A DNA stretch of 9,907 bases from the NCBI GenBank assembly GCA_022562855.1, contig JADFON010000044.1:1-9907 (forward strand), read 5' to 3'. This DNA comes from Candidatus Zhuqueibacterota bacterium (lineage in GTDB: Bacteria; SM23-31). The translations under genes and the position numbers were made by a program. Positions within the stretch are counted from its first letter, which is position 1. Each line of letters starts with the position of its first letter. The notes under the pieces were generated by a model. That model searched no databases, was not told where the DNA came from, and worked only from the letters and a program-made list of their open reading frames with translations. This document shows positions 5,415 to 8,457 of the stretch, one piece after another.

Positions 5415-6743
5415 ATGACAAAGTCAGAAATTATCAGAATAGCCCAGCAGGAACAAGTCCAATTTCTGAGACTCCAGTTTACAGATATCCTCGGACAAAT
5501 AAAAAATGTGGAAATTCCATCTCCCCAGTTTTCAATGGCGCTGGACAGTCAATTCCTTTTTGACGGTTCTTCGATAGAAGGTTTTTCGCGTAAACAGGAA
5601 CTCGATATGATACTTGTTCCTGATTTCGATTCGTTTCGTGTATTTCCATGGACGGAAGATAAGGGTGAAAACAAAATTGCAAGTATTATCTGCGACATTT
5701 ATTATCCGGATGGGAGAGAATTTGAAGGTTGCCCCCGTTTGACATTAAAAAAGGTTCTGGAAAAATGCCGAGGACTCGGATTCGATTATTTTATCAGCAG
5801 TGAAGTTGAATTTTTTCTCTTCAGTAAAAAGCCTGACGGAACACCGACCATGTCTACAAATGATCCCGCCGGTTATTTTGATCTGACCCCGGATGAGATT
5901 GGCGATGCTGCACGCCGCAACATTGTAAAATCGCTTGAAACAATGAATTATAAGGTAGGTTCTTCTCATCACGAAGTTGCACAGGGTCAGCATGAAATCG
6001 ATTTCATAAAGGTGGATGCCGTAAGTGCCGCCGATCATATCGCGAGCTGTAAATATATTGTCCGAAAAGTCGCAGGCAATTTCGGATTACATGCCACTTT
6101 TATGCCTAAACCGTTATTTAACCAATATGGGTCGGGATTACATTTACATCAGGAACTCAGCAAAAACGGCGAAAACGCCTTTTATTCACAAAAAAATGAA
6201 TTACAGCTTAGTAAAACCGCTTTGGCATTTATCGGAGGACAATTAGACCATTCGAGGGGATTTTGCGCCATCACGAACCCGCTTATCAATTCTTACAAGC
6301 GTCTTGTCCGCATGTCGGAAGCGCCTACGTTCACGACCTGGTCCCAGCAAAATATCTCACCTCTTCTGCGTATTCCCGACCAACGCGGAGAAAATACGAG
6401 AATCGAACTGCGGCTGCCCGACCCAACATGCAATCCGTATCTTGCGTTTGCGGTCTCATTGCAGGCGGGATTAGACGGGATCAAAAATTCGACCGACCCG
6501 GGAAAACCGGTCAACAAAGATGTCTACAATATGAGCCAGAGGGAGCGTGCGCGTTTGAAAGTGAACAGGCTTCCAAAAGATTTAAATGACGCGCTTGGTT
6601 ACATCAAAAAAGACAAAGTCGTTCAATCGGCGCTCGGAGACTATATCTTCAATCATTTTTACTCTGCGAAACAAGCCGAATGGAACAGCTATATATCGCA
6701 GATACACCCTTGGGAAATCGAGCGGTATTTCACATACTATTAA
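5415..6743 (+). CDS. glnA: Type I glutamine synthetase (GSI-alpha, Bacillus-like) with an altered active site
   Basis: A 442-residue GSI-alpha family protein; such enzymes form dodecamers and make glutamine from glutamate, ammonia and ATP. Visible motifs: FTDILG (22-27), FDGSSIEGF (49-57), metal ligands in SSEVEFF (E130, E132), HHEVAQGQHEID (185-196), the ATP-site segment FMPKPLFNQYGSGLHLH (229-245), NSYKR (292-296), and TRIELRLPDP..NPYL. R59 matches the feedback-inhibition Arg62 of the Bacillus enzyme. There is no GSI-beta 25-residue insertion or adenylylation site. Oddities: the usual NRSPLIRIP reads NISPLLRIP, so the catalytic arginine equivalent to Salmonella Arg339 is Ile314, and the flap PGYEAP reads RMSEAP, keeping the key Glu302. 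The other active-site arginines (R296, R319, R329, R333) remain. Ordinary synthetase activity is therefore uncertain; a divergent glutamate ligase or a regulatory homologue is possible. It is 62 bp upstream of a second glnA. Confidence 0.9.
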   Translation: MTKSEIIRIAQQEQVQFLRLQFTDILGQIKNVEIPSPQFSMALDSQFLFDGSSIEGFSRKQELDMILVPDFDSFRVFPWTEDKGENKIASIICDIYYPDGREFEGCPRLTLKKVLEKCRGLGFDYFISSEVEFFLFSKKPDGTPTMSTNDPAGYFDLTPDEIGDAARRNIVKSLETMNYKVGSSHHEVAQGQHEIDFIKVDAVSAADHIASCKYIVRKVAGNFGLHATFMPKPLFNQYGSGLHLHQELSKNGENAFYSQKNELQLSKTALAFIGGQLDHSRGFCAITNPLINSYKRLVRMSEAPTFTTWSQQNISPLLRIPDQRGENTRIELRLPDPTCNPYLAFAVSLQAGLDGIKNSTDPGKPVNKDVYNMSQRERARLKVNRLPKDLNDALGYIKKDKVVQSALGDYIFNHFYSAKQAEWNSYISQIHPWEIERYFTYY

Positions 6744-6805: not shown

Positions 6806-8134
6806 ATGAGCTACACCGCGGAAGATGTATTAAGAATTGTGAAGGACAAGAACGTCCGCTTTATAAATCTTTGGTTTACCGATATACTGGGCATTTTGAA
6901 GAATTTTTCCATTACCCCCCAGGAACTGGAGGGAGCGTTCGCCGAAGGAATGGGGTTTGACGGTTCGTCTATCGAAGGATTTGCCAGGATACAGGAAAGC
7001 GATATGGTTGCCTTTCCCGATCCGTCAACTTTTAATATACTTCCCTGGCAGTCGAATAGTCTCGTATTAGGAAGGATGTTTTGCGATATCTATACCCCTG
7101 AAGGCGAACCGTATGAAGGGGACCCGCGGTACTGTCTGAAACGCAATCTTGAAAAAGCGAAGGAGATGGGTTTTGACTCGTTTTATATAGGTCCCGAACT
7201 TGAATTTTTTTATTTTCCGAGTGATAAAGACCCGACGCCACTCGATTCAGGTGGTTATTTCGACCAGCTTCCATTGGATCTTGGCACCGATTTAAGAAAA
7301 GAAACGATCAAAAACCTTGAAGAACTCGGCATCGCAGTGGAATACAGTCATCACGAGGTTGGTCCAAGTCAGCATGAGATAGACCTCCGGTACTGTGACG
7401 CTCTTCGCATGGCTGACCAGGTAATGACGTATAAAACGGTCGTTAAGAGAACAGCGTACCAGAGAGGCTATTACGCCACGTTTATGCCAAAGCCTATAAC
7501 TGGTGTGAACGGTTCCGGAATGCATATCCATCAGTCGTTGTTTAAAGGCGAAAAGAACATGTTTTTCGATAAGAACAACGGCACATATCTTTCCGAAACC
7601 TGTAAACATTATGTCGCGGGAATACTCGCGCATTGCCGCGCGTTTACTGCAATCTCCAACCAGTGGGTAAATTCATACAAACGTCTCGTACCCGGGTATG
7701 AGGCGCCGGTATATATCTCATGGGCACAGAGAAACAGGTCGGCTTTGGTGAGAATCCCCGTTTACAAACCGGGTAAAGAGAGCGCTACCCGAATCGAAAT
7801 CAGGTCACCCGACCCGGCATGTAATCCATATTTGACTTTTGCCGTTATGCTTCGCGCAGGGCTTGACGGAATCGAGAAAAAAATGGAATTGATGCCTGCT
7901 TCTGACAATAACATTTATGAAATGACCGAAAAAGAAAGGAAAGACGCCAATATACTTGCGTTACCCGAATCACTCTGGGAAGCCATTCAGCTTATGGAAA
8001 AAGATGAATTGATAAAGGATGCACTTGGCGATCACATATTCGAACAGTTCATGCGCAACAAGAAGATCACCTGGGAAGATCACCGTGTCCAGGTCACTCC
8101 TTATGAGATTGAGAACTTCATGCCGATATTATAG
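6806..8134 (+). CDS. glnA: Type I glutamine synthetase (GSI-alpha, GlnA2-like), active site intact
   Basis: A second 442-residue GSI-alpha protein. All hallmark motifs are present: FTDILG (24-29), FDGSSIEGFARIQESDM (51-67, including the Arg62-equivalent R61), PELEFF (130-135), SHHEVGPSQHEIDL (181-194), FMPKPITGVNGSGMHIHQSL (226-245), NSYKRLVPGYEAP (289-301), AQRNRSALVRIP (307-318, catalytic arginines kept) and ATRIEIRSPDPACNPYLTFA. It ends TPYEIENFMPIL, resembling the TPFELERYLPVL ending of actinobacterial GlnA2-type enzymes, and it has their NLWFTDILG and SNQWVNSYKR variants. It therefore belongs to a different subgroup from the preceding gene and is the better candidate for the main glutamine-forming enzyme. 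Tyr371 lies near the position of the E. coli adenylylated tyrosine, but alpha-type enzymes are not normally adenylylated. AAAGGA seven bases upstream supports the ATG at 6806. Confidence 0.95.
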   Translation: MSYTAEDVLRIVKDKNVRFINLWFTDILGILKNFSITPQELEGAFAEGMGFDGSSIEGFARIQESDMVAFPDPSTFNILPWQSNSLVLGRMFCDIYTPEGEPYEGDPRYCLKRNLEKAKEMGFDSFYIGPELEFFYFPSDKDPTPLDSGGYFDQLPLDLGTDLRKETIKNLEELGIAVEYSHHEVGPSQHEIDLRYCDALRMADQVMTYKTVVKRTAYQRGYYATFMPKPITGVNGSGMHIHQSLFKGEKNMFFDKNNGTYLSETCKHYVAGILAHCRAFTAISNQWVNSYKRLVPGYEAPVYISWAQRNRSALVRIPVYKPGKESATRIEIRSPDPACNPYLTFAVMLRAGLDGIEKKMELMPASDNNIYEMTEKERKDANILALPESLWEAIQLMEKDELIKDALGDHIFEQFMRNKKITWEDHRVQVTPYEIENFMPIL

Positions 8135-8160
8135 TAATTTGAGAAACGGAATTCAATGTG

Positions 8161-8174
8161 TCCGGGTTTCCGGA
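8161..8174 (+). other. Short GC hairpin after the glnA pair
   Basis: TCCGG-GTTT-CCGGA gives a perfect 5-bp stem with a tetraloop 26 nt after the stop. It is not followed by a T-run, so it is at most a weak pause or a 3'-end-stabilising hairpin and not a clear intrinsic terminator. Confidence 0.3.
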
Positions 8175-8203
8175 GCTAAATAGCCTGTGTCCAGTATTTT
8201 GGC

Positions 8204-8222
8204 AGTGTTTTAATTAAACACT
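8204..8222 (+). terminator. Weak candidate terminator of the glnA pair
   Basis: AGTGTTT-TAATT-AAACACT: perfect 7-bp arms with a 5-nt loop, then a T-rich stretch (8227-8242). The stem is AT-rich and the T-run is interrupted, so efficiency is doubtful. It partly overlaps the left arm of the larger inverted-repeat element. Confidence 0.35.
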
Positions 8223-8413
8223 TAACTTTTGTATTTTTGTTTAAAACCACTTTTAGTTGGATTGAAAACCCAAAGTTGCAAAGTCGGGGTCAGGGACGAT
8301 CCCGACTACGATTCTTTTTGCCATATCTGATGCGGTAGTCCGGTCTGCCCCCTTGATCGGGCTCGTCCCGGAGCCGGACATGATCAATTTAGTCAGAAAT
8401 ACAAAAGTTCAGT
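8220..8413. repeat. 194-nt inverted-repeat element with internal hairpins (MITE-like or structured RNA)
   Basis: The left arm 8220-8245 pairs with 8388-8413: of 26 positions all but two mismatches can pair in RNA (two as G-U). Its core is AACTTTTGTATTTTTG (8224-8239) against CAGAAATACAAAAGTT (8394-8409). Inside are GC-rich hairpins: AGTCGGG (8282-8288) with CCCGACT (8301-8307), and GTCCGG (8338-8343) with CCGGAC (8374-8379); GGCTC (8360-8364) can also pair with GAGCC (8371-8375). GGGACGATCCCGA (8293-8305) is repeated inverted at 8357-8369 with one mismatch, so alternative folds exist. TTAAACACTTAA (8214-8225) and TTAAACATTTAA (8413-8424) are near-identical direct repeats at the ends, like a target duplication. 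No ORF lies inside. It ends 45 bp before the cyclophilin start, so it could be a non-autonomous mobile element, an ncRNA or a leader structure. Confidence 0.6.
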
Positions 8414-8457
8414 TAAACATTTAAATTTATTGAATGCAAGAAATGGAGAAATGCTTT

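Follow-up and report, generated by a model that had tools for sequence, protein, structure and literature searches.

What kind of element separates a glutamine synthetase gene from a cyclophilin gene in the 9,907-nucleotide stretch of DNA analysed here (the window), and how might it have come to lie there? The window is the entire contig C34 of a 2.5-Mb assembly that consists of 491 contigs and is 80% complete. The initial annotation had described a 26-position outer stem with two mismatches at this junction, and the stem holds: its 26-nt arms (8220-8245 and 8388-8413) pair at 22 of 26 positions by Watson-Crick rules and at 24 of 26 when two G-U pairs are counted. No pair of 26-mers with at least 22 paired positions arose in 300 intergenic first-order Markov sequences or in 20 whole-window ones, and the outer stem is the sole pair of that strength within the window. 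The second inverted pair reported inside it is likewise present, GGGACGATCCCGA and TCGGGCTCGTCCC being complementary at 12 of 13 positions. The flanking direct repeats of the form TTAAACAyTTAA are indeed identical at 11 of 12 positions, and the composition departs from the AT-rich surroundings, with a G+C content of 44.5% in the element and 62% in its core against 35% in the flanks. The 194-nt stretch folds as RNA at a predicted -63.1 kcal/mol (z -3.8), a stability equalled by none of 200 shuffles. The 191-bp element contains no transposase gene, and its longest internal ORF is 44 aa. The features of the locus are listed in Table 1. The window also holds tandem glutamine synthetase genes (5415-6743 and 6806-8134), each with full Pfam domains.

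Table 1. Features of the element and its neighbours, in window coordinates
Feature	Start	End	Strand	Basis
Upstream neighbour, glutamine synthetase, second of two glnA-like genes	6806	8134	+	PF00120/PF03951
Left target duplication TTAAACAC (12-mer TTAAACACTTAA, 8214-8225)	8214	8221		Sequence; permutation test, 15 copies
Whole non-autonomous element, 191 bp, shell A with REP pair	8222	8412		Seven genome matches; no counterpart at syntenic G001 site
Left terminal inverted repeat TTAACTTTTGTATTTTTGTTTAAA	8222	8245	+	Arm pairing; end-family matches
Left GTAG-tagged palindrome (REP), GTAGTCGGGATCGTCCCTGACCCCGAC on the minus strand	8283	8309	-	Pattern matches; covariation
Right GTAG-tagged palindrome (REP), GTAGTCCGG...CTCGTCCCGGAGCCGGAC, split by an 18-nt insertion	8335	8379	+	Sequence; alignment with C285 and C244 (without insertion)
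18-nt insertion TCTGCCCCCTTGATCGGG inside the right REP, common to C34, C349 and C81	8344	8361	+	Alignment
Right terminal inverted repeat (TTTAGTCAGAAATACAAAAGTTCAG on the plus strand)	8388	8412	-	Arm pairing; end-family matches
Right target duplication TTAAACAT (12-mer TTAAACATTTAA, 8413-8424)	8413	8420		Sequence; permutation test
Downstream neighbour, cyclophilin-type peptidyl-prolyl isomerase; alternative start 8434	8458	9126	+	PF00160

That the hairpins of the interior are REP sequences with a GTAG tag escaped the initial annotation; the inner inverted pair is two REPs in opposite orientation. Both hairpins carry a GTAG tag at the foot of a 9-bp stem, and the tags face each other. This matches the GTAG REP as defined in PMC3733652, a GTAG or similar tag beside a stem of 6-13 bp with a short loop. 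The REPs occur as extragenic dimers in opposite orientation, with the tags inside in the kind of outer repeat found in the window (shell A) and outside in a second kind (shell B). Among 47 distinct 27-mers with a common tag and loop, 91.7% of cells are paired, a percentage biased somewhat upwards because we chose the 47 from 51 matches and left four out, and 54 cells show double changes. Sliding the structure lowers their covariation score from 0.389 to 0.066 or less; some of the aligned 27-mers come from loci fetched by a search that prescribes part of the stem. Elsewhere in the genome, outside the window, contig C347 encodes a REP-associated tyrosine transposase (RAYT; NF047646, E 3e-35) with the same REPs on its flanks, which is the arrangement of a REPtron; a second gene above the NCBIfam cut-off, on C119, has no such REP adjoining it in pattern searches. 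On reading the loci, 17 of the 19 strict matches to the REP pattern in the window's genome were assigned to shells, and the RAYT locus accounts for the remaining two. At that locus the RAYT frame (L028 1766-2266) appears to enter a flanking REP, which would then encode the last residues of the protein (SGSGTSRTTGCG).

A search of the window's own genome with the whole element, the copy-number check that the initial annotation had proposed, showed that the element is not single-copy, with matches at seven places: the window, C349 (94%), C81 (91%), C285, C244, C306 (half of the element) and C293 (at the end of the contig). All copy counts given here come from sequence searches. The C349 and C81 copies are nearly full length; in alignment they and the window copy are alike throughout, including the 18-nt insertion in the right REP, which C285 and C244 lack. 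Since these three share everything down to the insertion, the composite was copied as a whole after its assembly. The same search of 40 other genomes found no copy outside the window's own. The arm sequence TAACTTTTGTA is present at 1015-1025, as had been noted, but the match does not extend and the whole-element searches gave no hit at that place; we rejected it as a second copy and treat it as a coincidence.

The proposed check for an empty site was carried out in a genome of the sister genus, G001. There the order from glutamine synthetase to cyclophilin is kept, the gap between the two genes is 27 bp compared with 323 bp in the window, and the element is absent. This is not an exact empty site, because the 79 bp ahead of the element (8135-8213) also lack a counterpart in G001.

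Shell A is bounded by terminal inverted repeats of the CAGTACTTTTGTATTTT family and, in the window, by the imperfect target duplication TTAAACAC/TTAAACAT (7 of 8 positions); ACTTTTGTATTTYT was found at many further places in the genome. Where both ends of a copy are available (15 copies), the flanking 7-mers agree with at most one mismatch in 13, against 2.9 expected, and their total was reached by none of 20,000 permuted pairings of left and right flanks. These flanks were collected by hand with offsets of up to 6 bases allowed, and the permutations were treated equally. Duplications are exact at C220 (TTAAATAA) and C244 (TTCAATAT); copies C81 and C357 have no clear duplication. The shell also encloses quite different palindromic cargo (C220, C229, C357, C444, C198 and C83), and in its minimal form, on C318, it measures about 55 bp and has no REP. 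Shell A without any GTAG REP is found on C318, C403 and C444 and also in G001, where it stands elsewhere in the genome and encloses yet other cargo.

Among the matches listed from the window's genome, a MAG that is 80% complete, no inward-facing pair of ends was noticed at the distance of an insertion sequence, and no transposase with terminal repeats matching the shell was found in it. IS66, which we considered as a candidate source on account of the GTAA ends and 8-bp duplications in BS750m-G18 (below), is the one DDE family tested and was rejected, as no IS66 transposase (PF03050) is present in the window's genome (G000), G001 or G041. We found no account of nested palindromic IS66-related MITEs in the open-access literature.

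The same class of REP is packaged in shell B as well. Its ends, GAGAGTGTTGCA...TGCAACACTCTC, surround REP pairs in about 18 REP-bearing copies in the window's genome, and on C123 they surround other cargo. Its duplications are weaker than those of shell A and still exceed permutation in a test of 11 entries that counts one left end twice, as L025 and again as L190. An apparent hybrid (G000 C279:3826-3891 and C306:1-140; L249, L006) joins a shell-B left end, REP sequence and a shell-A right end between flanks TCCCTTAAA and TCTCTTAAA that agree at 8 of 9 positions; the ends of the two contigs coincide over about 80 bp, apart from two differences, and the hybrid may be a misassembly.

A pattern scan located this REP class in many lineages among the matches listed. 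BS750m-G18, from the Black Sea, has a 124-bp element with GTAACWGTTTAG ends that encloses an inward-facing REP pair of the same type. Exact, abutting 8-bp duplications flank 13 of its 17 listed copies (119 matching positions against 55.5 expected, s.d. 6.5) and 18 of 28 in a wider listing; both listings contain a few overlapping or nested entries. The REPs of this genome fall into 23 between two recognisable ends, 19 with one recognisable end and 8 with none, and two of these last eight flank a RAYT gene that is 39% identical to the RAYT of C347. A 124-bp element was also seen, as a MITE within a MITE, inside the terminal repeat of an older shell (L264, L277; G041 C112), where both the insertion (8 bp) and the older shell have an exact duplication of their own. 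In a Dehalococcoidia genome, C20_metabat.bin.42, GAGAGTGTTGAA-type ends surround REP pairs in four copies. Many other lineages among the listed matches have REPs with no evident shell, so packaging is not universal. In LCP-89 and Modern_marine.mb.49 (L126, L128, L134, L139, L143 and similar loci), many REPs seem to lie within or beside the 3' ends of genes that, judged by eye from the locus listing, appear to encode repeated C-terminal domains.

Taken with its lack of coding content, the terminal inverted repeats, the several copies at unrelated loci of one genome, the target-site duplications of the family (7 of 8 in the window's own copy) and the absence from the relative's syntenic site identify the element, very probably, as a MITE carrying a REP pair; a MITE was one of the options raised in the initial annotation. 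The ends, copies and duplications suggest that a cut-and-paste (DDE-type) transposase acting in trans would move the entire shell; such an enzyme is expected to duplicate roughly 7-9 bp of its target. The REP pair could in addition be bound as hairpins by the RAYT of the genome, and it was probably this enzyme that introduced REPs into the shells. At this locus the insertion would have separated glnA from the cyclophilin gene, two genes with only 27 bp between them in the relative; its role might be at most that of a transcript-end or processing hairpin.

Movement by the RAYT alone, as a REPIN/BIME-type element, would make the outer arms a hitch-hiking flanking palindrome comparable to the 'TIRtrons', in which RAYT genes lie in long inverted repeats. 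The genome does hold a REP-flanked RAYT, and Di Nocera et al. (PMC3733652) report both REP dimers in long palindromes and RAYTs with unrelated TIRs. Enzymes of the IS200/IS605 type, however, have no terminal inverted repeats and do not generate larger target duplications (PMC2817692), whereas here duplications abut the ends of the shell, and the shell exists without a GTAG REP on three contigs and in G001. We therefore consider this explanation quite improbable. Still less can be said for a structured RNA, or for a leader that regulates the exported cyclophilin, both suggested in the initial annotation. A leader would agree with the stable fold 45 bp upstream of the cyclophilin gene and with one terminator-like hairpin at 8282-8307 (0.5 expected by chance), but an Rfam scan of the element gave no match, copies reside at unrelated loci and the orthologous junction of G001 has no element, so that neither suggestion is supported and a regulatory role of this kind is very hard to credit.

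A further proposal would add to the MITE reading instead of competing with it: the MITE may since have been domesticated here as a terminator or mRNA-stabilising hairpin of the glnA transcript. The element is directly downstream of glnA, it has a hairpin followed by a T-rich tract, and REPs are mostly downstream of coding regions according to PMC3733652. Nothing here shows selection for such a role, however, and the terminator signal is barely above chance, which leaves domestication unlikely.

Three known systems come close to a MITE with a REP pair as its cargo. The GTAG-15 REP dimers of Anabaena variabilis (Di Nocera et al. 2013, PMC3733652) are alike in having an inverted pair of GTAG REPs within a long outer inverted repeat that recurs in the genome; the accessible part of that report gives no target duplications and interprets the palindrome as a site into which REPs insert. 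In the present case, by contrast, target duplications flank the outer repeat, which also occurs free of REPs, and one REP class is found in two unrelated shells. REPINs or BIMEs with their RAYT (PLoS Genet 2011, PMC3116915; Nunvar et al. 2010, PMC2817692) share the two inverted GTAG REPs and the RAYT gene flanked by the same REPs. A REPIN proper is a unit delimited by two REPs and moved by RAYT, whereas the recurring unit here is delimited by terminal inverted repeats of its own, next to target duplications, and not by the REPs. Prokaryotic MITEs as reviewed (PMC10969869) are similarly short, non-coding and multi-copy, with terminal inverted repeats and target duplications, but the cargo here is REP palindromes, and that review contains neither RAYT nor 'nested', and 'REP' merely as a journal abbreviation. 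The novelty lies in REP pairs being packaged systematically in shells that make duplications, and the precedent for it is the A. variabilis dimers in long palindromes. We found no earlier account of REP-bearing MITEs in the open-access literature, and a prior description elsewhere is thus possible.

The spread of REP sequences is described as poorly understood in PMC8266576. Packaging of a REP pair in a shell that has terminal repeats and target duplications provides a concrete way of spreading in addition to the RAYT. Such packaging occurs in the window's genome and in BS750m-G18, and a Dehalococcoidia genome shows it with a related shell. As a tentative proposal, the main vehicle of GTAG REPs in several uncultivated lineages would be MITE shells that are moved by a DDE enzyme and carry the REPs as interchangeable cargo, and not the RAYT alone; the RAYT would seed the REPs and the shells multiply them, and the RAYT would perhaps also swap cargo or fuse shells through the REPs. 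If this is true, REP dimers 'within palindromes' become composites of two transposases. The distribution of the strict matches in the window's genome, 17 of 19 in shells and two at the RAYT locus, makes it directly testable what each of the two enzymes contributes. REP pairs inside MITEs, found in unrelated bacteria too, may show how some REP repeats spread.
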